64,000 bases of DNA, from NCBI GenBank assembly GCA_020439745.1, contig JAGQSC010000003.1, positions 248,001 to 312,000 of the forward strand, written 5' to 3'. The notes beneath the pieces were generated by a model. That model searched no databases. It was not told the origin of the DNA and worked only from the letters and a program-made list of their open reading frames with translations. Below are positions 46,222 through 58,317 of this stretch, piece by piece; the stretch's first letter is position 1; every line of letters begins with the position of its first letter. Source of the stretch: Acidobacteriota bacterium (lineage in GTDB: Bacteria; Acidobacteriota; Holophagae; Acanthopleuribacterales; Acanthopleuribacteraceae). The translations under genes and the position numbers were made by a program.

Positions 46222-49200
46222 ATGGATTTCGTGGGCTCCAGAGTCGGCAACATAGATATTGTCGAGAAAATTGGGTCTGGCGGCATGGGCGATGTCTACC
46301 TGGGCATGGATCGCACCCTGGAACGCAAAGTAGCAGTAAAAATGGTACGTGGCGTTCGCGGAAGTGGGGTAGATCGACAGACCGTTAAATCGCTGATTGT
46401 CAACGAAGCCAAGATCCTCTCTCAGCTAGAACATCCCTACATCTGTAGAATCTACGAGTTCGTGGAACACGACACCTGTGATTTCCTGGTAATGGAACTC
46501 ATCCAAGGCACCGATTTGGCCAAATGGCTCGAAAGTGGGCCGTCAGATCGAGAGAAACTACAAGTAGCCGCACAAATTGCCGAAGTCTTAGTGGTGACGC
46601 ACCAACACAACATCGTCCATCGCGACCTGAAACCTCAGAACGTGATGGTGGATGCACAAGGTCACATCAAGGTGTTGGATTTTGGCATTTCCATGGCACT
46701 CCAAGTCGCCGCCAAGTCTGAAACCTCAGTTGCCGCAGACGTGACAGACACTTTTGAAGTCCGTGCCATCACAGGCGGCATCCTCACCCGTTACGGGGTT
46801 GTCGTAGGCACACCCATGTACATGAGCCCGGAACAGGCGAAGGGTGAAGAGATTACAGCTGCTAGTGACATGTATTCATTTGGACTTGTGCTTCAGTGGC
46901 TGTTCACGGAGTCTGACCCCTACGAGTTCGAGACGTTGGGCGACCTAGTTGATCAAGTCATTGAGGGGCATACGCGACCGCTCATCGGTTTGGACCCCGA
47001 CCTGACCAAACTCTGCAAACGACTGATGAACATGACGCCCGAAGTGCGGCCCACAGCACAGGACACACTGGACCAAATTCGATGGATTCAGCAAAAGCCG
47101 AAACGCCGCATGCGAGCGGCTGTAGCTGCCGCATTTGCAGTCCTGCTGCTGGCGGGAACGACCGCTTCTACCGTAGGGTTTTACAGGGCTCGAGAAGCCG
47201 AGAAGGCCGCCATCGAGTCGCGCAACCAGGCTCGCGAAGTCAATCGATTCTTGGAGAAAATGCTTGCTTCTCCCAACCCATCAGAGCAAGGTATTGATGT
47301 CAAAGTTGTAGAAGTACTAGACGATGCAGCTTCACAGGCTGAACGCACACTTGACAACAGTCCCATTGTCCTTGCAGCCATTCGCCATACCCTGGCCAAA
47401 ACCTATGCATCCTTGAGTCTTTACCAACCATCGACAGAACTCATTCAAAAGGCGATCGAAGCGCGAACGGCTCTTTTGGGCGCGGATCATGACGACACGT
47501 TGCTTTCAACTTTGATACTCGCTGAGATATGCACTTATCAGGGTGATTACGTCCAAGCCAAGGCGCTCACGCAGAGTGTGCTGGACGCCTACCAGGTGCG
47601 AAAAGAACCAGAACACGAAAACAACCTGAAGGCGCAGCACCTCTATGGTTGGATACTCCTAAGTGAGGGCAAGTTCCCCGAGGCAGAACCCGCCATACGA
47701 CTGGCATGGAAAGAGCGGACACGCATTTTGGGGGCCGAACATGAAGAGACGCTGCAATCACAAAGTGCCCACGCATCCGCGCTACTACAATTAGGGAAAT
47801 ACAAGGATGCTGAAGAGGCCATTCGGTCCTATCTGGACTTGGCTCGAACGACATTGGGGACAGAGCACCCGCTTAACTTAATAGCCGAAATGAATCTGTC
47901 GTCGAGCATGATGTACCAAGGTCGCTATCCCGAAGCGTTGGAAACCTTGACACCCCTTATTCCGCGGCTGGAACGTGTGTTTGGTCCCAACCACCAAAAC
48001 ACTCTGAATGCCGTCTTGAACCTGGGTGCTAACTATTTTTATGCAAATCGAGATCAAGAGGCACTGGATCTTTACGAACCGCTCTTGGCTCGAATGACCG
48101 AAGCTCTTGGCACGCAACACCCCTCAACACAATTGGTTCTGCAAAACATTGCGGCCGTACAAATTAGGCTGGGTAACAGCGCAGAAGGCGAAGCCACCAC
48201 CCGCAAACTCATCGAGATCCAAGAAAACACACTGGGCCCTGCCCACCAAACCACCATCCTTACAAAAACCAACTTGGGCAGTGCGTTGCGCCAACAGAAG
48301 AAGTTCCTAGAAGCCGAAAAGGAGTTGTTGGCCACAATCGCTTTGGCTGACGCGCAATTGGGGCCTGACAATCCAACCACGCTCATCGCATGTGAGATGT
48401 TGGCTCATACCTACAACGATCAAAAAAAGTACCCATTGGCACTACCTCTGTTCGAACGAATCACCAAGGGTCGTGTGCAATCACTAGGGCCAACCCACCA
48501 AGACACCATGTCTTCCGCAAGCATGGTGGGCAGAACCCTTATGAATTTGGGTAACTACCAAGAGGCATACGATGCGTTATTGGCTGCGTGGAATCAATGG
48601 AAGGGTGTTTTGGGTGCATCCCACACCTATGCGTTGATGACCCTTGCTGATCTTGCCCAAACGGCACGGCAATTAGGTCATGATCAAACCCTCCCTCTTT
48701 ACCAGGCCCTGGTAGAAGCGCGCACCCAGCAATTGGGTCGCGGGCATGCTGACACACTGAGTGCCATGAACACCATGGCCGACATACTCCTTCAGAAAAA
48801 GGAGCCCATGGCCTTGGAAGTGCTCCGCGATATCAGTGAAACCACCGATCAGAAACACGGCCCGAATCAAGAAGCAAGCCTGACGGCCATTTACCGGCTT
48901 GCCATGGCGCAACGTGAGTTGGAACCTAATGCCGCACCAGACACTTTTCGCGACATTCTCAAGCGCTACAAAGCGAGAGACATCGCCGACATGCGTATGG
49001 TTCAGGCCTATAACGACTTGGCCTACACCTTGATTGAGACTAGCAACCCAACAAACTGGCAGGAAGCGGAATCACATGCGCAAGCTGCATTGGATGTGCT
49101 CGATCATCTGAAGACAGATCCACTCCACAAATTGGCAACAGCACACGTCATGGACACCATGGCCTTTTCACTCGAAAAACAGGGCCGCAACCAGGAAGCC

Positions 49201-49284
49201 ATTGAGTACTACCTAAATGCCGCCAAATTGGGCCATGAAACCGCCCAAGCCGCAGCCGACCGATTAAAGGCGCAACAAGAGTAG
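46222..49284 (+). CDS. Transmembrane Ser/Thr protein kinase with C-terminal TPR domain
   Basis: A 1020-residue protein. Residues about 10-285 are a complete PknB-type kinase: IGSGGMGDVYLG glycine loop, VAVKMV lysine, IVHRDLKPQNVMV catalytic loop, VLDFGIS, and GTPMYMSPEQAKGE. One membrane span lies at about 298-318 (AAVAAAFAVLLLAGTTASTV). Residues about 380-1010 are TPRs of the kinesin-light-chain-like type (ALLGADHDDTLLSTLILAEI; RTILGAEHEETLQSQSAHAS). All catalytic residues are present, in contrast to the pseudokinase at the left end. Substrates unknown. It converges on the ATPase operon. Confidence 0.92.
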   Translation: MDFVGSRVGNIDIVEKIGSGGMGDVYLGMDRTLERKVAVKMVRGVRGSGVDRQTVKSLIVNEAKILSQLEHPYICRIYEFVEHDTCDFLVMELIQGTDLAKWLESGPSDREKLQVAAQIAEVLVVTHQHNIVHRDLKPQNVMVDAQGHIKVLDFGISMALQVAAKSETSVAADVTDTFEVRAITGGILTRYGVVVGTPMYMSPEQAKGEEITAASDMYSFGLVLQWLFTESDPYEFETLGDLVDQVIEGHTRPLIGLDPDLTKLCKRLMNMTPEVRPTAQDTLDQIRWIQQKPKRRMRAAVAAAFAVLLLAGTTASTVGFYRAREAEKAAIESRNQAREVNRFLEKMLASPNPSEQGIDVKVVEVLDDAASQAERTLDNSPIVLAAIRHTLAKTYASLSLYQPSTELIQKAIEARTALLGADHDDTLLSTLILAEICTYQGDYVQAKALTQSVLDAYQVRKEPEHENNLKAQHLYGWILLSEGKFPEAEPAIRLAWKERTRILGAEHEETLQSQSAHASALLQLGKYKDAEEAIRSYLDLARTTLGTEHPLNLIAEMNLSSSMMYQGRYPEALETLTPLIPRLERVFGPNHQNTLNAVLNLGANYFYANRDQEALDLYEPLLARMTEALGTQHPSTQLVLQNIAAVQIRLGNSAEGEATTRKLIEIQENTLGPAHQTTILTKTNLGSALRQQKKFLEAEKELLATIALADAQLGPDNPTTLIACEMLAHTYNDQKKYPLALPLFERITKGRVQSLGPTHQDTMSSASMVGRTLMNLGNYQEAYDALLAAWNQWKGVLGASHTYALMTLADLAQTARQLGHDQTLPLYQALVEARTQQLGRGHADTLSAMNTMADILLQKKEPMALEVLRDISETTDQKHGPNQEASLTAIYRLAMAQRELEPNAAPDTFRDILKRYKARDIADMRMVQAYNDLAYTLIETSNPTNWQEAESHAQAALDVLDHLKTDPLHKLATAHVMDTMAFSLEKQGRNQEAIEYYLNAAKLGHETAQAAADRLKAQQE

Positions 49285-49321: not shown

Positions 49322-49340
49322 ACAGGACTAGCCTGTTTTT
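49322..49340 (+). terminator. Intrinsic terminator after the kinase gene
   Basis: ACAGG-ACTAG-CCTGT followed by TTTT on the plus strand. The loop contains the stop codon (TAG on the minus strand) of the convergent ATPase gene, so the terminator overlaps that gene's 3' end. A 5-bp stem makes it moderate. Confidence 0.5.
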
Positions 49341-52300
49341 CCTTTCCCTTGCAAGATGGTCGTGGCATAATCCGATGCCGTTTTTAACGCATCGAATACG
49401 GCTAACCATTTCAGGCCATTCATATCCGCCTTCTCCACGCTTACCGACAAGCTCAATGCGTGACCTCCATCAGAGACACTCTGGGCTTTGAAACTGATGG
49501 GGTAGATCTTGCGGTTCAGGGCTCTCAATCGTTTGATTAAGTCGTCCTGCTCATCGTCGGCCAACTGGCCCAAATCCACCGAGAAATGGAGCTGGGTGCC
49601 ACGTGCATTCAATGCGACCAGCGGGCCCTGCCCTTGTCTCAACTCGAAGAGGGAGCCACCAAGTTTCTGAACCGTAAACCCGTGCTTCTCCAAAAACCCA
49701 CTAGGCAACCCCGTTTCCCGATCCATACGCAGGACTTCCTTCTCTTCAGGAGCCAGGGAACGCAACACATCCAGTAACTGGCGCCACTGAGTATCCGACC
49801 ATTGTGATTCAACCGTTTCGGGAAAAACCGGCCCTTCCTTCAATTTTCTAACACCTTGTCGGAGCGCCTTCCCGATTCGGGTGACGCCTTCATTGAGTAG
49901 TGCCATTTGTGCCATGACCTGAGCTGCAGGGTCGTCACTCCCGGAACTGCGCAGAAACACATTACGGGAGAATGTCTGTTTGATGTCCGCCCAACGCCTT
50001 TTTCTTGCGTCATCCATCCAGCCAAGTAACTCGTACAGTTTCAACAAGTTAGCTTCGGTGCCGCTTGCCAAGGTCTGCGCCTCATTTTCATAGTGATCCG
50101 CAAGGATCTGATCCAGCTCCCCCTCATTGGTTATGGCCATGATCTTTTCAGCTATCTTGTTCATGTTGCGGTAGGAGCCTTGAAGTTTGAAGGGCGGCTC
50201 ACTGCGATAGTCGTCAGACTGGGCCGCACTCTCCATGTATGCCTGGTTTACCTTTAACAGCCGGTCCCGCACGAATAGCAGTTTACTCACAACGGCGTGT
50301 ACCTCATCCACATATACCGCGGGGTAGTCTCCTTCCACCTTGGCTGCATCATAGGTGGCACCTTGTGCCACATCGATGAAGTGATGTAGATCCTTCGGGT
50401 GGCTGCGCGCAATTCGAGCTAAGACCTTATTCGAAGTCATGCAGTTCTCCAGGTAGCTGCGTGAAAAGGCTTCCTGTCTTCCCCCGATCACTTCACCCAG
50501 ATTGTAAGTATCCGCCCGGTTGGCGAGCATGTCCGGTACCTGGAAGCGCGACCCGCTTTCTGTGTAGGGGTTACCTGCCATCACCACACACACTTTTCTG
50601 CCGCGCAAGTCGTAGGAAACCGGCTCGCCCTTCCAAACACCTTCCATGCGCCGCTGCGCATCGCACAGGGCGATAAATTTCTGCAGAAACTCGGGGTGAC
50701 AATGTTGGATATCGTCCACATAAATCATCACGTTATCGCCTAATCGCAATGCGAGATTGAGTTTACCTAGCTCTTCGCGGGCTGAGGCGTGAGGTGCCTC
50801 AGCGGGATCTAACGATGTAACGGCGTGTCCAATCGAGGGCCCATTAATTTTCACGAACACCAAGCCCAACCGATGTGCCGTATATTCCATGAGAGTTGTC
50901 TTCCCATATCCAGGGGGTGACACCAACAGCAAGAGACCCATGAGATCTGTGCGCTTCTCGTCGCCAGCAGCACCGATCTGTTTGGCGAGATTGTCACCGA
51001 TCAGCGGTAGGTAGACCTGGTCAATGAGTTGGTTTCGCACAAATGACGTGAGGACTCGTGGCTTAAAACGATCCAGTTTCAACAGGTTGCCATAGTCTTC
51101 AGCGATGCGTTTCTTGAGAGAAATAAACTCATCGTACATAGGCCTTAAGGTTGAACGGTGTCTTTCCAACTCATTCACTAAATTGCGATAGGATACTTCC
51201 AGGCAACCGTCAGCTATGGTCGAATGGCTACCAAGCAAACCAGATAGGCGTACCATTTCATCACTTTCGCATGCAGTCCAAACTTGGTCGCCGCACAACA
51301 CCATAGACGCAATTTCAGGTACCCATTCACCCTGAACTTGGTATTTGTCTAGCCACGACATCACCAACTCCCACTGAGCTTGATACATATCACCCAAAGA
51401 CCAAACACTTTGATTGAATGTCTCGGTGAGGCCGTCGACCCGCAAGGATTCCGCGAACCTATTACATAGGTCCAATGAATCCTTTGCCACAAGGTGCATG
51501 CCGTCGATCAACAGACCATGGGCCAAAAACATCGCAGCACCGGAAACCCCGTTGAGGAAGGAAGCATAAGGCGCCAACGTTTCTCGACATACGTCCACAA
51601 GATGTGAAGGTGGATTCTGCTTATCCACGGCTCGAAAAGCTGCGGCACATATGGTCAACTTGTCCCTCTGCGTGTCGTCTAGCATCCGATACCAAACGGT
51701 ACGTACCAATCCGCGGGTATGTGGCTCATGCACTAACGTTTGAAGATGCGTACCCATGCGCGCAAGCTCTTCGGCGATTTGTACCGCATCTCGATCATGG
51801 ACGCCCTTGATATAACCGTCCAACACGACCTTGGGGAATTCATCATTGACCCGGGATGCCCAATCACCCTTGGCATGCGTGTTCATCACATGGTGGGCAA
51901 GCACACAACCTGCATACAAACTTGGGGTTTCACATGCTACATCCCAATCCCAAACCGGTCTGTAAGGTTCCAGATCTTCTTTATTAACAGGCTCTAAGAA
52001 TTGGGTTCCAGAGATTTGGACACCCCAACGATCACGCACCCGCACCAAACTCAACTCAAGGCTGGACGACTGGACTTGGAACTGGTGGCGACCCAAACGA
52101 ATGGTGTTGGCAGCCGCAAAAAGATCTAATCTGTCTCGTAACTGGCGCAAGGCCTCTTCGCGCAAACTTTGAAAACGACTGAGCAGCTCTTCGGCCCGAA
52201 CTTCATCGCCCAACCCTCTCAGTCGTTCCACGTTGGCGCGCACTTTTTCTACCATCAAGTCCGCAGCCAGGAAGCTGTTCATTTCCTCTTGTGTGTTACA

Positions 52301-54625
52301 TGCGGACAATCGGCGACTAATACCGTCCAGTATTCGTTCGGATGCTTGCACCAGGTTTTGAGCCTGTTTCTGCCGTTTCTCAGAGAGAGAGAATCTTCGT
52401 TGGTCGAAGGCCGACACCAACTCTTCACGGCGTTCAGCCAACACGAGTAGGAACGACTCGCTATCAGCAAATCGCGTTTCCATTTCTTCCAAGTGCAGCA
52501 TCAGCCTACCAAGGTTGGCATCACATAACTCAGGTGTTTCTGCTCGCTCGAGCATGTGGGTCATATTCTGCTGAAACAGCGTCATTTGGGCAGTGAACGC
52601 AGCTTGATTTTCACGCTCTGAAAACGACTGAATCCGTTGTTGAAGCTTCGACTGAAAACGATTGAGTTCTTGAAAAAGCAAGGTCAACTTTTCCACAATG
52701 GCACTGACTTGAGTGGCATCGTCAGCTTGCAGCCGATTTAATACATCGAGCAATAATTCAAGCTTCTCTGTCAGATGATGGGATTGCTGTTTGAGCACCC
52801 TCGCTTGAGCCCCTTTTTCCAATTCCGACAAGGCTTGATTGAGTTCATCCAACTCGAGATGAAAGGATGCAAGTGCGTGATCGGTCATCAGGAAATCAAT
52901 GAGGTGACCCGTCCCGATTAAGGCAGACTCGGTCACTCGTCTCGACAACTCATCAAGAGATGACACGTCCATGTAGGGTTTTTCGCGCATACCCTCAATA
53001 TTGCCTTTCACATGGCGAAGGGACTCCAAGAACGAAAGATGCTCGTCCAGATGTTCTTTGGTCACTGCCACTCGGCTCACCAGCTTTTCGGCGTCTTTTC
53101 TGACTTGATCTAAACCCTTCTGAGCATCCCTCTGGTAGTCCAAGACCTTTTGATACACGTCAATGGCTTGCTGAGCGGTTTCTCTGAGCGACTTAAGTGG
53201 TTTGTGCAGCGAGAGATCGGTTTGAGGAACCCAATGGAATCCCTCTAGAATCTCATCCACCATTTTCACCAGGTCGCGAAAATAGCTTTCGTGCAAACGA
53301 AAGTCGCGAACGATCTGAATGATTCGATGCCCTTCGGCAAGGAATCGTACGATATCGCGATTCCCCACTTTGGCCACAACAGGATTGACGTTTGAAGCGG
53401 GTTTTGGAGGATGCTTACTGAACGGTGTCTGCCAGACTTGTATCGCGTGGTGCTTTTGAGGTTCGTCATCGGCACGAAAGAACAGCAGTTGCCCGTCGTC
53501 AAAGAGTGAATAGCCATGACATTGAATGGGAGCGCCCATTTCACCTGTAATCGTGTTGTACATCATCAACACGTACAGCGATGTTTGCGGTTGAAAGAAC
53601 ACATAAAAGTAGTCTTCCCCATTCGGAGAGGGAATCCGCCTTTCGAAAAGAATGCCCCGAACGTGGTTTTCAAAATGCCGGACTTCGCCTGAAACCGAAT
53701 AGGTGCCACTGGCATGGACCAATCCGGCATCACCGGGAAGCACCAAGCAACAATCACCAATGCCGTCTGCTCGGGCTACTGTTTTCAGCTTGTCGTTAAA
53801 GACAAAGAAACGAAAATCCTTTTCCTGAAAGGGTCGAATTTTGAGCAGGATCAGATGCTCCAGAATTGCATAGAAAATTTCTGCGTCATCAAGAGACTGT
53901 TCCTTATGCGTGACAGGCTCTGCATAAATCCCTTCTCCACTTTCCGTATTGTCTTCAATTTTGATGGTCAGATCGCCGTCCACCGTCTCAACAAAGACCC
54001 GGTCATCAATCGATACATGGGGATGCGGCCCTTTGCTGTGTGAGTCTCTAGTCGTTTTGGTCCACTGAAAATCGAATTGGGACGGATATGCGAATTCGTG
54101 ATCACTACGGTTATCCACGTAACTCAAGGAACCATCTTCAATGACCCATTTAAAGGTCTTGATGTCACTGGTGTTCTGCCCAACCTGAAAGATCATGAAC
54201 AAATAGGGCCCGATTATTGAGAATTTGGCAAAACGCGTGTGTCGGTAGTATTTGTACAGGCTTTTGAAGTCGTCTAGAAAGCGATCATCAACAATCAGGT
54301 CCAAACTGTCTGGAACCATGGTTTCGCCATTCCAGTGGTGGATGCTGAACACATCCTCCAACAGAACCTCTGTTTTGAGACCGAAGCGGACATTGAATCC
54401 AAAAATAAATCGATGTCCAACCGACACCATGTCCATGGGCACACAGTTGTGTTCGGAAATGATGTGTTCTGTGGTGACTAGTTCGGTTGGCGTGCTGCCA
54501 AACGCTTCCCTGCGACGCTCATCCAAATGACCCAGAGCTTGCCGCAACTGAGCAGTATGACCATTGAGTCTATTCTGCAATGCCTCAAAGGTAGACTGAT
54601 CCCAACTCGCAGTTTTCTCTTGCAT
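49328..54625 (-). CDS. Giant DUF3686-type AAA ATPase
   Basis: A 1765-residue protein matching the layout of the DUF3686 proteins often labelled 'DNA repair ATPase'. Residues about 30-440 are beta-rich and propeller-like; about 470-830 is a long coiled-coil region; about 840-1200 is helical; about 1200-1480 is an AAA module with Walker A (SPPGYGKTT, Lys1242), Walker B (MIYVDDIQHCH, Asp1304/1305) and a sensor-1 Asn (VVMAGNPY). The tail ends with a mixed domain. No nuclease or DNA-binding motif is seen, so the DNA-repair label is doubtful. GGAGAGGGG precedes the ATG. Last gene of the flotillin operon; a hairpin sits in the 48-base gap before it. Confidence 0.85.
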   Translation of the reverse strand: MQEKTASWDQSTFEALQNRLNGHTAQLRQALGHLDERRREAFGSTPTELVTTEHIISEHNCVPMDMVSVGHRFIFGFNVRFGLKTEVLLEDVFSIHHWNGETMVPDSLDLIVDDRFLDDFKSLYKYYRHTRFAKFSIIGPYLFMIFQVGQNTSDIKTFKWVIEDGSLSYVDNRSDHEFAYPSQFDFQWTKTTRDSHSKGPHPHVSIDDRVFVETVDGDLTIKIEDNTESGEGIYAEPVTHKEQSLDDAEIFYAILEHLILLKIRPFQEKDFRFFVFNDKLKTVARADGIGDCCLVLPGDAGLVHASGTYSVSGEVRHFENHVRGILFERRIPSPNGEDYFYVFFQPQTSLYVLMMYNTITGEMGAPIQCHGYSLFDDGQLLFFRADDEPQKHHAIQVWQTPFSKHPPKPASNVNPVVAKVGNRDIVRFLAEGHRIIQIVRDFRLHESYFRDLVKMVDEILEGFHWVPQTDLSLHKPLKSLRETAQQAIDVYQKVLDYQRDAQKGLDQVRKDAEKLVSRVAVTKEHLDEHLSFLESLRHVKGNIEGMREKPYMDVSSLDELSRRVTESALIGTGHLIDFLMTDHALASFHLELDELNQALSELEKGAQARVLKQQSHHLTEKLELLLDVLNRLQADDATQVSAIVEKLTLLFQELNRFQSKLQQRIQSFSERENQAAFTAQMTLFQQNMTHMLERAETPELCDANLGRLMLHLEEMETRFADSESFLLVLAERREELVSAFDQRRFSLSEKRQKQAQNLVQASERILDGISRRLSACNTQEEMNSFLAADLMVEKVRANVERLRGLGDEVRAEELLSRFQSLREEALRQLRDRLDLFAAANTIRLGRHQFQVQSSSLELSLVRVRDRWGVQISGTQFLEPVNKEDLEPYRPVWDWDVACETPSLYAGCVLAHHVMNTHAKGDWASRVNDEFPKVVLDGYIKGVHDRDAVQIAEELARMGTHLQTLVHEPHTRGLVRTVWYRMLDDTQRDKLTICAAAFRAVDKQNPPSHLVDVCRETLAPYASFLNGVSGAAMFLAHGLLIDGMHLVAKDSLDLCNRFAESLRVDGLTETFNQSVWSLGDMYQAQWELVMSWLDKYQVQGEWVPEIASMVLCGDQVWTACESDEMVRLSGLLGSHSTIADGCLEVSYRNLVNELERHRSTLRPMYDEFISLKKRIAEDYGNLLKLDRFKPRVLTSFVRNQLIDQVYLPLIGDNLAKQIGAAGDEKRTDLMGLLLLVSPPGYGKTTLMEYTAHRLGLVFVKINGPSIGHAVTSLDPAEAPHASAREELGKLNLALRLGDNVMIYVDDIQHCHPEFLQKFIALCDAQRRMEGVWKGEPVSYDLRGRKVCVVMAGNPYTESGSRFQVPDMLANRADTYNLGEVIGGRQEAFSRSYLENCMTSNKVLARIARSHPKDLHHFIDVAQGATYDAAKVEGDYPAVYVDEVHAVVSKLLFVRDRLLKVNQAYMESAAQSDDYRSEPPFKLQGSYRNMNKIAEKIMAITNEGELDQILADHYENEAQTLASGTEANLLKLYELLGWMDDARKRRWADIKQTFSRNVFLRSSGSDDPAAQVMAQMALLNEGVTRIGKALRQGVRKLKEGPVFPETVESQWSDTQWRQLLDVLRSLAPEEKEVLRMDRETGLPSGFLEKHGFTVQKLGGSLFELRQGQGPLVALNARGTQLHFSVDLGQLADDEQDDLIKRLRALNRKIYPISFKAQSVSDGGHALSLSVSVEKADMNGLKWLAVFDALKTASDYATTILQGKGKTG

Positions 54626-54639
54626 ATCCCCTCTCCTGT

Positions 54640-54665
54640 GGGGTGAGGCGATTTGACCTCACCCC
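54640..54665 (-). other. Intercistronic hairpin between flotillin and ATPase genes
   Basis: GGGGTGAGG (54640-54648) and CCTCACCCC (54657-54665), a perfect 9-bp stem with an 8-base loop, in the 48 bases separating the two genes. On the minus strand it is followed by the ATPase ribosome site (AGGAGAGGGG), not a T-run, so it is not a terminator. It could stabilise the upstream message or adjust ATPase translation. Confidence 0.6.
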
Positions 54666-54673
54666 GATCGCAG

Positions 54674-56644
54674 TCATTGAATCCAGTTGGAAAGCGGCTG
54701 GTCTCCGATTTTATGGGCCTCCACAAGCGCCTGAAGTTTTGACAGTTCACCTTTCATCTGCTCGCTTGGCGCTGATTCCGCAAGGCGCCACAACAATTTG
54801 GCCATGGAAAGGTCGCGCACGTCGCTGGCATTGACACCAAAGCGGTTTAACACATCCTTGATGCTTTGGCCGATACCGTCACCGCGCAGCAAGCCATCCT
54901 TCACTTCGGAAAGCACACTGGAATTCTGCACCAAACGATCCAAGTAGCGGCCTTGGGATATGCCAGAAACAATCTTGTCGAAGAAAGCTGTTTCACCACC
55001 AACGATTTCAATATTCGCATGCCGCAAAGCTTCGGATAGTACTTTCGCCTGTGCATCGGCAATATCCCTCTGAACCTGGATTTGGGCCAAGTCTATGTCG
55101 CGCTCCTTCTGCAACCGAAGCTTGAATTCCTCGTGATCTTTGCCTATGCCATCCAACAACTTCATGCTCTCGGCTTTTTGCCGAATACCCGTTGCTTCAG
55201 CAGTTGCTTTCCGTTCGATTACGGTAGCCTCTGCGGTACCTTCCTGAGTGATAGCACTGGCACGTGCTTCCATCACACGAACCTCACTCATCCCCAACGT
55301 AGCCTCTTCCGTGGCTCGCGCATCGGCCAGAGTCTTCATGGCCTCAGCCTTTTTGGTAGCAGCGCTATGAGCGGCTTCAGCTTCAATCAACGTTTTTGCG
55401 GCTTCCAGTTCACTTGCTTGCTTGGCAGCATCTGCAGCTTTGACCTGACGAACCAATGCTTCCTGGGCCTCCATTTCGGCTCGCGTGACTTGAACGTTCT
55501 TCACACGATCAGCCTCGGCCTGGGCTTGTACATCCTTGATTCGTTCCTGCTCTTCGACAACGGCTTTTTCCACGACTATGCGTTCGCGAATGAGTTCTTG
55601 GATGTTCTTTCGCTCCTGCTCAATAGCCCGATCCTTTTCAAACTCGGCCAAGGCAACGATCCGTTCGCGTTCGTTCACTTCCAAGAGTCGGTCTTTTTCG
55701 ACCCGTTCCTGCTCCACAGCTTGTGTGCGTTGTTTGCTCTTTTCGGCAACGATCACCTGTCGCTGACGGTTCTCATCTGCCACCTGCAGTTCTTCATCAG
55801 TTTGGATTCGAGCCCGCTCTGCCTTTAACCGTTCTTCGTGAACGATTTTCTGCGCTTCGGCTTGTTCTCGCGCCTGAACTGCGTCTATTTCACGTTTTTG
55901 TTTGGCTTCTGTTTCGGCCAATTGCCTGTTCAAAGCAAGGATGGCTTCACGCGCCTCAACGTCCTGTTTGGTTATCGTCATCTCGCGGTCGCGGTCGATC
56001 TGGTTCGAGAGCACCTTTTGTTGCGCCGTGATTTGTGTAATTTTCTTGATACCTTCAGAATCCAGAATATTGTCAGGATTCATGAACTCCAATGGTGTTT
56101 GCTCGAGATAGTCAATGGCACAGTCGTCCAACACAAAACCATTCAGGTCCGTCCCGATTATCTGCAAAATCTCATTCTTAAAGCGCTCCCGCGCTTCGTA
56201 TAGCTCGACAAAATCGAACTGCTTCCCCACAGTCTTCAGTGCTTCTGAAAACTTGGCATCGAACAAATCCACCAATGCCTGCTGCTTGGAGGCACGTTCG
56301 CATCCCAGACTCTGTGCCACTTTCAGCGCATCCTCGGCCGTTTTGTTCACCCGCACGAAGAATGCCACCTTAATATCGGCCCGCATGTTGTCTTTACATA
56401 CCAACCCCTCTTTGCCTGTACGGTGAATCTCCACGCGCTTCACACTCAAATCCAGCACTTCAGCACGGTGAATGACCGGAAATACAAAAGTGCCTGAGAA
56501 CGCTACTTTTGCGCCACCCATCCCATTTCGAATCAAGGCCTTACCCTGATCCACCTTCACATAACACTTCACCATCATGGCCAGGATCCCCAGACCCATA
56601 ACCACCAGAATACCGATCACAGTTAACAACATGGCTTCTGGCAT
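54674..56644 (-). CDS. Flotillin family protein (YqiK-like)
   Basis: A 656-residue protein. One N-terminal membrane span (MLLTVIGILVVMGLGILAMM) is followed by an SPFH/band-7 domain (about 28-200; VKVDQGKALIRNGMGGAKVA). A very long, charged coiled coil of about 210-510 is rich in Glu/Ala/Gln repeats, then a globular C-terminus. Domain order and length match E. coli YqiK rather than the shorter FloT. Flotillins organise membrane microdomains. It begins 11 bases after the NfeD-like gene and is followed by the ATPase. Confidence 0.92.
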   Translation of the reverse strand: MPEAMLLTVIGILVVMGLGILAMMVKCYVKVDQGKALIRNGMGGAKVAFSGTFVFPVIHRAEVLDLSVKRVEIHRTGKEGLVCKDNMRADIKVAFFVRVNKTAEDALKVAQSLGCERASKQQALVDLFDAKFSEALKTVGKQFDFVELYEARERFKNEILQIIGTDLNGFVLDDCAIDYLEQTPLEFMNPDNILDSEGIKKITQITAQQKVLSNQIDRDREMTITKQDVEAREAILALNRQLAETEAKQKREIDAVQAREQAEAQKIVHEERLKAERARIQTDEELQVADENRQRQVIVAEKSKQRTQAVEQERVEKDRLLEVNERERIVALAEFEKDRAIEQERKNIQELIRERIVVEKAVVEEQERIKDVQAQAEADRVKNVQVTRAEMEAQEALVRQVKAADAAKQASELEAAKTLIEAEAAHSAATKKAEAMKTLADARATEEATLGMSEVRVMEARASAITQEGTAEATVIERKATAEATGIRQKAESMKLLDGIGKDHEEFKLRLQKERDIDLAQIQVQRDIADAQAKVLSEALRHANIEIVGGETAFFDKIVSGISQGRYLDRLVQNSSVLSEVKDGLLRGDGIGQSIKDVLNRFGVNASDVRDLSMAKLLWRLAESAPSEQMKGELSKLQALVEAHKIGDQPLSNWIQ

Positions 56645-56655
56645 GTTTCCCTCCT

Positions 56656-57306
56656 CTATTGTCTTTCCGGTTCTACAATGTAGGCGTGAGGTCCATCCTT
56701 GGCCACCACACGCACACGATCACCTTTTTCCACCCTTACGCCCGGCTGCGTGCGGATGTTAATGCGAACGAAAGCACCTTTCGCTTCTGTTTCTGCCTGA
56801 CCCAACCTATGGTCGTCGGCTGCGGCCAAAACCGTGCACGAAAGTCCCAATACATTCTTCAACTGTTGTTCTTCGGCACTCATCCTGTGGAAGATGGCGC
56901 GTAGAGGATACAAGCACAGTCTGCTCAATACAAAGCTGAGTATCATAGCGGCCAGCATCACCAGCGCCGCCATTTTCCAACTGTCGGTGTGAAGCAGGTA
57001 GTTGCCCATGACTGTGAGAATCCACATCCACAGTACAAACATGCTTGCAATGACGGTCAAGGGTACCTGGCCTAAGAAGAGAAACCCTGCCAAGTTCGTC
57101 GCGAAACCACCGCTTTCCAATTCGCTATCCATGTCGCCGTCAAGATCGGCATCCAGATCTGCGTCCATGTCAGGTCCTTCGATGTCCAAAACGTCCAGGT
57201 CCAAAACGCCCAACATTACCGTGATCCAATACAACAAAATCAGCCCCAAAAGGAGCGTGAGCACAAAGTTGTACGGATGGATGGAGAACTGCAGCAGTTC
57301 CAACAT
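56656..57306 (-). CDS. NfeD/YqiJ-like membrane protein with OB-fold
   Basis: About 216 residues. The start at 57306 has AGGGGAG seven bases upstream; the frame is open to 57354. A first helix (FVLTLLLGLILLYWITVMLG) leads to a strongly acidic loop (LDIEGPDMDADLDADLDGDM), then two more helices and an OB-fold beta-barrel tail (GAFVRINIRTQPGVRVEKGD, RVRVVAKDG). NfeD-type proteins pair with flotillin/stomatin proteins, as E. coli YqiJ does with YqiK. The Asp-rich loop is probably on the outside and could bind divalent cations; that is inference. Confidence 0.88.
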   Translation of the reverse strand: MLELLQFSIHPYNFVLTLLLGLILLYWITVMLGVLDLDVLDIEGPDMDADLDADLDGDMDSELESGGFATNLAGFLFLGQVPLTVIASMFVLWMWILTVMGNYLLHTDSWKMAALVMLAAMILSFVLSRLCLYPLRAIFHRMSAEEQQLKNVLGLSCTVLAAADDHRLGQAETEAKGAFVRINIRTQPGVRVEKGDRVRVVAKDGPHAYIVEPERQ

Positions 57307-57490
57307 TGGAATCTCCCCTCTGATGGTTACCAGGTCACCGGAACATGCCCACATGTGTACAGTTTTCGCAACCTGTGTTTGTTAGAAAACTATGGACCTA
57401 GGTTACAAGTACGGTGCTCAAAATGCCAACCGTTTTTTCCTCTGATAGTTCATTTCCCCCCCTTGAAAACTTGCAACTTTATGAAGTTGT

Positions 57491-58048
57491 CTACGTGCGA
57501 TCTGGATGCATTGTTTCAAGGGCATCATCGCTTGAAGGTTGCTCGCGCCACTTGCGTTCCAGTCGATGAGCGGCTTCCACCGCAGATACCAGCGCGTCCG
57601 TGGCTTGGTGTTCAGGGCGTCCATCCATTTGGAAATATCGAGGTGCATTCACAGCCACCAATTCCAGAGCCTCAACCACTTGGTCCATACTGGCTAACAA
57701 CTCGTCCCGTTGTTTCCGATTCAAGTTCACGCGATCTTGTACCCTTTCAGATTCGCTTTGAATATCAGTTGCCCGGTGAAGTTCTTTGGCCCGCTCTAGC
57801 AGACGTTGCCCCTCTTCGAAGGCTTGCCTAGCTTTCAACAACCAGTCGCGTGCGAGATCTCCATCTCTCTGACTGAGCGTAGATTTGGCCTGGTCAAATG
57901 CTCGACTCAACATGACGGCACGGCGTTCACCGGGCTCCCAAACTTGAGTTTCGTTGGTGCTTTTCGATCTGCCTCGACGCAAAACCCACCACGTCATGCC
58001 TCCCAAAGCAACGGCGTATAATGCACCGATACCCAGCCATTCAAGCAT
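57491..58048 (-). CDS. Membrane-anchored coiled-coil protein of the flotillin operon
   Basis: About 185 residues. I chose the ATG at 58048 because the six upstream codons of the longest frame are the ribosome site itself (GGAGAAGGA). A single helix (LEWLGIGALYAVALGGMTWW) is followed by a basic patch and a long helical region of heptad type (AFEEGQRLLERAKELHRATD). No recognised domain. It is the first gene of the set with NfeD-like, flotillin and DUF3686 ATPase genes, although 184 bases separate it from the second, so it may be transcribed separately. A partner or adaptor role is inference. Confidence 0.75.
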   Translation of the reverse strand: MLEWLGIGALYAVALGGMTWWVLRRGRSKSTNETQVWEPGERRAVMLSRAFDQAKSTLSQRDGDLARDWLLKARQAFEEGQRLLERAKELHRATDIQSESERVQDRVNLNRKQRDELLASMDQVVEALELVAVNAPRYFQMDGRPEHQATDALVSAVEAAHRLERKWREQPSSDDALETMHPDRT

Positions 58049-58317
58049 GTGATCGTCCTTCTCCATTCACTGCACCCAACTCACAATCAGAGACTCCAAC
58101 ATTCGCAAACTTGACGATGGGACCAGCTACCAAACAGTTATGCAATAAAAGACACATACCATTCACAGAGCCCACCTCTCCTTTCATTCGAACATAACAC
58201 GGATTAAGCCACACGGCATCGTTAACGCCCATCCAGAGCCGAAGGAAAGGAGCCACCGCCATTTCGCAACTTGCGTGACCTACTCGGCCGGGTTAGGTTA
58301 GGGGTCTGGAAAGCACC

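Follow-up and report, generated by a model that had tools for sequence, protein, structure and literature searches.

A 64,000-nucleotide stretch of an Acidobacteriota bacterium genome (family Acanthopleuribacteraceae; assembly GCA_020439745.1, contig JAGQSC010000003.1, positions 248,001 to 312,000 of the forward strand), referred to here as the window, contains a four-gene locus coding for a YqiK-type flotillin, a YqiJ-type NfeD protein, a 1,765-residue ATPase with DUF3686 and AAA+ domains, and a small putative membrane protein. The YqiJ/NfeD protein, flotillin, and ATPase behave as a single unit in both inheritance and gene arrangement across distant phyla, and these three, a flotillin membrane scaffold with its small membrane partner and a giant ATPase, almost certainly represent one working unit. 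There is an even chance that this unit is a flotillin-coupled AAA+ remodelling module.

Linkage of the ATPase with flotillin and YqiJ

A scan of genome contigs yielded at least 548 relatives, of which the best 80 were kept together with loci from the phylum and genus of the window, and neighbors were counted in the 69 loci whose sequence extends 4 kb or more upstream of the ATPase gene. In 67/69 loci the next gene upstream, in the same orientation, codes for flotillin; YqiJ is present in 63/69, and PspA immediately precedes YqiJ in 18/69, mostly preceded in turn by CesT/Tir_1 or DUF2170. Longest-open-reading-frame (ORF) calling gave flotillin in only 61/69 (antisense ORFs mask 8 loci), and the count of 67 comes from a six-frame profile search; one of the two loci lacking an adjoining flotillin (L052) has one elsewhere in the same genome. 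Because the best 80 are skewed towards the query, genomes were drawn a second time, evenly, from the phyla to which two other loci belong, one from Actinophytocola and one from a gammaproteobacterial metagenome-assembled genome, in which DUF3686 is present in 8/198 and 8/299 genomes, respectively. In these 16 new loci, flotillin adjoins the ATPase gene in 16/16, YqiJ is present in 15/16, and PspA in 2/16.

The window's own relatives show the same arrangement. DUF3686 is present in six of seven genomes of the family, and three of four further family loci have YqiJ, flotillin, and the ATPase; the other (L123) has YqiJ, with a long antisense ORF over the flotillin position. Among 297 genomes of the phylum, DUF3686 is present in 11, spanning nine families, and a flotillin profile at E ≤1e-20 identifies 12 genomes, these being the same 11 (844 to 1,104 bits) and one with a distant relative (155 bits); the coincidence has a hypergeometric P of ∼4e-19, with relatedness ignored. 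The linkage is seen in genomes of the window's phylum, Bacteroidota, Planctomycetota, Verrucomicrobiota, Actinomycetota, Bacillota, and Pseudomonadota, and is patchy in distribution yet close to obligate, the pattern expected of a machine passed on whole. An initial annotation of the window had proposed the coupling of the ATPase with flotillin and YqiJ, and since DUF3686 homologues are kept beside flotillin, and are not mostly found away from flotillin and NfeD genes, the coupling stands. Two actinobacterial genomes carry two YqiJ-flotillin-ATPase copies each, G512 at loci L144 and L146 and G566 at L147 and L148.

Organization of the locus

As initially annotated, the four ORFs are all on the same (minus) strand, in the order small protein (58048-57491), YqiJ/NfeD (57306-56656), flotillin (56644-54674), and ATPase (54625-49328), with intergenic gaps of 184, 11, and 48 bp. 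The features, with window coordinates, are as follows (TM, transmembrane span; P0001, the ATPase).

57491..58048, minus strand: small protein, 185 amino acids (aa); a short hydrophobic span at the N terminus followed by a helical/coiled-coil region predicted to be cytoplasmic (positive-inside); genus-restricted
56656..57306, minus strand: YqiJ-type NfeD protein, 216 aa; three TMs, Asp-rich loop between TM1 and TM2, C-terminal NfeD/OB-like domain
54674..56644, minus strand: YqiK-type flotillin, 656 aa; putative N-terminal TM and SPFH region, followed by a long coiled coil and a C-terminal extension
49328..54625, minus strand: DUF3686-AAA+ ATPase (P0001), 1,765 aa; propeller, helical/coiled-coil part, small beta plus helical part, AAA+, C-terminal alpha/beta domain
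53234..54547, minus strand: DUF3686 domain, P0001 residues 27-464; Pfam E 2e-164; modelled as a beta-propeller with WD40-type matches
50018..51055, minus strand: AAA+ domain, P0001 residues ∼1191-1536; Walker A SPPGYGKTT 1236-1244, Walker B D1304/D1305, sensor-1 N1352, R1370, sensor-2 R1486
49331..49678, minus strand: C-terminal alpha/beta domain of the ATPase, P0001 residues ∼1650-1765; low-confidence model; only two genus members

Facing the module on the plus strand (46222-49284) is a gene for a large Ser/Thr protein kinase with about 10 TPR_12-type repeats, which is not kept there in the other genus member.

Anatomy of the ATPase

The propeller-like, coiled-coil, and AAA parts initially described for the ATPase are all seen, but DUF3686 corresponds only to the N-terminal propeller and not to the ATPase domain. 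Pfam matches are to DUF3686 (residues 27-464), DUF7902 (583-666), and AAA (from 1232), with AAA_5 at its cut-off (22.5 versus 22 bits). Two AlphaFold2 models were built with 57 to 58 homologues, and in structure comparisons residues 46-401 resemble WD40-type beta-propellers (best Z 10.5 over 214 residues at 5.0 Å); residues 415-834 are modelled as helical/coiled coil and 841-1110 as a small beta part plus helices. For the AAA+ domain (∼1190-1536) the best ten structure matches are all to NorQ/CbbQ (Z 15.4 to 17.3; top match 238 residues at 3.6 Å), followed by Clp proteins at Z ≤14.9 (ClpC, 14.9). As modelled, the domain is thus nearest to NorQ/CbbQ and is predicted to be of the MoxR type, and the strands between Walker B and sensor 1 (model 198-222) would fit the pre-sensor-1 hairpin of that clade.

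Residues K1242, T1243, D1304, D1305, N1352, R1370, and R1486 are invariant in 82/82 homologues. Alignment suggests that R1370 and R1486 are the arginine finger and sensor 2, and on this assignment the catalytic set of Walker A, Walker B, sensor 1, arginine finger, and sensor 2 is intact. Beyond residue ∼1590 the tails are lineage-dependent: Bacteroidota have short ones, those of planctomycetes and the window's phylum are long and variable, and the C-terminal alpha/beta domain is shared only by the window and G297, the second member of its genus. Any likeness of this domain to CesT/Tir or YbjN is confined to the order of secondary structures in a low-confidence model, and profiles perform no better than shuffled controls; against CesT_Tir_1 relatives, hhalign gives a probability of 0.5% and E of 0.12, inside the range of the shuffled controls. 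The module was also considered as an anti-phage defence system, for which there is no convincing PADLOC match and a weak one over the coiled-coil part (E 0.008).

YqiJ and flotillin

The YqiJ/NfeD protein, counted from a start with an AGGGGAG ribosome site, has three predicted spans and matches YqiJ_N (E 1.6e-5), and the match to the NfeD C-terminal family reaches only E 0.12. The Asp-rich loop noted initially is real, with 14 acidic positions per 30 residues, and corresponds to the Asp-repeat DMDADLDADLDGDMD (window 57111-57201) between TM1 and TM2. VDVDVD-type repeats of varying length are found in YqiJ relatives, and at least 12/30 residues are acidic in 25/90 of them (median, 9), so that the loop is typical of YqiJ in kind and variable in strength.

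The flotillin itself has no Pfam match at E <1, and a Protein Data Bank sequence search using the flotillin profile gave no match, but it is 46 to 49% identical to relatives, and two of seven close relatives match Band_7 (best E 8.5e-10). A 248-aa ORF lies antisense within the flotillin gene (window 55082-55828, plus strand), and in several relatives comparably long antisense ORFs over the coiled coil cause longest-ORF calling to miss flotillin.

A genus-restricted fourth gene

The small ORF could open at 58066, but a start at 58048 has a better ribosome site, GGAGAAGG, and the relative at locus L040 begins at an approximately equivalent residue. A single-span coiled-coil protein was initially proposed; the span is plausible but weak, with a mean Kyte-Doolittle value of ∼1.4 by hand (>1.6 in the relative). 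Pfam and further profile searches gave no family match, and the protein was also considered as a PspA relative and has no PspA match. The only homologue is in G297 (E 1e-46, ∼50% identity), at the same place before YqiJ; the gene is absent from other family members and all other loci examined. The slot that it occupies is filled in Bacteroidota by PspA, itself preceded by CesT_Tir_1.

A role for the small protein as the adaptor between scaffold and ATPase had been suggested, but only two genus members carry it and other modules do without it, so it cannot be a general adaptor; the main inference of the initial annotation, the tight ATPase-flotillin/YqiJ coupling, is borne out and this proposal is not. 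There is a somewhat less than even chance that the three core genes alone form the module, with the 185-aa gene a separate, genus-specific gene upstream by chance. Its restriction to two genomes and the 184- to 192-bp gap to YqiJ, with little conserved sequence, are consistent with this. However, it is kept in place at ∼50% identity in both genus members even though the outer flanking genes on both sides of the module differ between them, which modestly suggests a link to the module, given that there are two genomes; moreover, neither a terminator nor a sigma-70-like promoter was found in the gap. A more elaborate proposal, which we regard as highly doubtful, is that this genus has replaced the CesT/Tir-PspA input, with a membrane-tethered helical protein in the PspA slot and a CesT-like domain fused to the end of the ATPase, giving a self-contained, flotillin-driven, PspA-free remodelling machine.

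A proposed mechanism and its alternatives

The coupling with flotillin had been taken initially to argue for remodelling or quality control at membrane microdomains; the coupling holds, and the mechanism we infer is as follows. Flotillin and YqiJ would come together at the inner membrane, with most of their mass facing the cytoplasm, and this platform would collect clients, either unfolded or mis-assembled membrane-proximal proteins or, where present, membrane-bound polymers such as PspA. The ATPase would dock through its propeller and coiled coil, form a ring (probably a hexamer), and spend ATP to remodel, unfold, or release the clients or the scaffold itself. Family searches recognised no protease or nuclease domain in the ATPase, so it would act in a chaperone-like manner. 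The gene order, the co-occurrence, the fold matches, and the invariant residues favor this mechanism, as do the published precedents of FloA-NfeD, HflKC-FtsH, and RavA-ViaA described below. In this genus, the membrane-tethered helical protein in the PspA slot may, speculatively, tune recruitment.

Several points weigh against this mechanism. The second Walker-B acid is usually Glu in AAA+ proteins, where it is the canonical catalytic residue, but here it is Asp (D1305; window 50711-50713) in all 82 homologues, and ATP hydrolysis is therefore not to be assumed. VWA proteins serve as partners of the MoxR-type relatives NorQ, CbbQ, and RavA, and family searches of the four module products gave no VWA match in any of them. 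The coupling seen is one of gene order and co-occurrence. Deletion of yqiK in Escherichia coli gives no growth phenotype, although E. coli lacks the ATPase.

An alternative is that the ATPase acts like Vps4, dismantling membrane-bound polymers of PspA, which has an ESCRT-III fold, with flotillin and YqiJ merely marking the site. The position of PspA directly before YqiJ in 18/69 loci (2/16 in the second sample), the ESCRT-like roles proposed by Ravi et al. (PMC11237479), and the two PspA proteins encoded elsewhere in the window's genome are all consistent with this. However, most modules lack PspA and almost none lack flotillin, and 7/28 module-bearing genomes, which may be incomplete, have no PspA match, indicating that PspA is not required, though it may be a client or partner. 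The AAA+ fold is also closer to NorQ/CbbQ than to Clp or p97, and Vps4 is not among the 50 structure matches listed for the domain, which does not in itself exclude a Vps4-like activity; overall we consider this explanation unlikely. The same fold invites a reading in which the ATPase is a dedicated activator that twists open one membrane enzyme or transporter for cofactor or metal insertion, as in metal insertion by NorQD (PMC13036017, excerpt), with flotillin-YqiJ as the dock; the Asp-rich loop present in many YqiJ relatives could then hold cations. Against this, no single enzyme gene recurs beside the module in the loci examined, the module lacks a VWA partner, and loop acidity varies, making such an activator distinctly improbable. 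Finally, the Pfam description of DUF3686 as a DNA repair ATPase, and a weak local similarity to RuvB around the P-loop, can be given almost no credence as a guide to function: no family of nucleases or DNA-binding proteins is matched at threshold, RuvB models fall well short of their cut-offs (19 versus 282 bits), and the constant partner is a membrane scaffold. The initial annotation was thus correct in finding the label without support, as there is also no repair context.

The two PspA loci of the window's genome have contexts of their own. At L024:7806-10662 (C10), PspA lies beside ORFs of 74, 100, and 152 aa resembling pspB/pspC and a divergent 339-aa ORF with the appearance of an NtrC-type regulator; this seems to be a classical psp locus, separate from the flotillin module. 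At L023:8315-11996 (C63), a second PspA accompanies a 384-aa repeat-like protein and a 574-aa Ser/Thr-kinase-looking protein on the same strand, and this is possibly a separate PspA system.

What bacterial flotillins do is still debated, and a near-obligate AAA+ partner across phyla suggests that many probably work with an ATP-driven motor and not as passive scaffolds. The public label "DNA repair ATPase" is misleading for the DUF3686 family, and the small gene set in harmless, culturable hosts such as Hymenobacter, Leeuwenhoekiella, and Christiangramia makes the flotillin-motor idea directly testable.

Comparison with known systems

The core of the module belongs to a kind already described. 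In 2024, from genome comparisons, Ravi et al. (PMC11237479) reported an operon of YqiJ/YuaF, a band-7/flotillin protein, and a propeller-coiled-coil-AAA+ protein, with or without CesT/Tir-PspA, and they describe PspA-free abbreviated forms as widespread. The window module has the same three core proteins (three-TM YqiJ, band-7-coiled-coil flotillin, and propeller-coiled-coil-AAA+) and, unlike the long form with its CesT/Tir-PspA pair, lacks PspA; it is thus an abbreviated form of that operon, to which it adds the genus-specific TM/coiled-coil gene before YqiJ and the genus-specific C-terminal domain of the ATPase. The main text of PMC11237479 does not name DUF3686 or mention MoxR, and a full-text literature search found no paper for DUF3686 and none joining "DNA repair ATPase" with flotillin.

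The E. coli yqiJ-yqiK pair and related SPFH2-NfeD2 operons (Hinderhofer et al. 2009; PMC2636767) similarly have a YqiJ-type NfeD gene before a YqiK-type flotillin, but the E. coli pair as described lacks the ATPase; in accord with the initial annotation that E. coli has only this pair, the control genomes, which include E. coli, have no DUF3686. FloA-NfeD of Staphylococcus aureus is likewise a flotillin with an NfeD partner and holds unfolded proteins at the membrane independently of ATP (PMC11222466), but no ATPase partner is reported there. Another parallel, in combining an SPFH assembly with an AAA+ motor, is HflKC, which partners with the AAA protease FtsH (PMC12048511, excerpt). FtsH is a membrane protease, whereas the window ATPase has no protease family match. 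The nearest AAA+ folds are those of NorQ/CbbQ, although NorQ, CbbQ, and RavA lack the N-terminal propeller and coiled coil of the window ATPase. MoxR-type ATPases remodel dedicated targets (PMC13036017 and PMC9489729, excerpts), and one of them, RavA, functions together with ViaA at the inner membrane (PMC9489729, excerpt). Beyond these systems, what is added here is DUF3686 modelled as a beta-propeller, a NorQ/CbbQ-like AAA+ domain with invariant putative catalytic residues, and the genus-confined small gene and ATPase tail.
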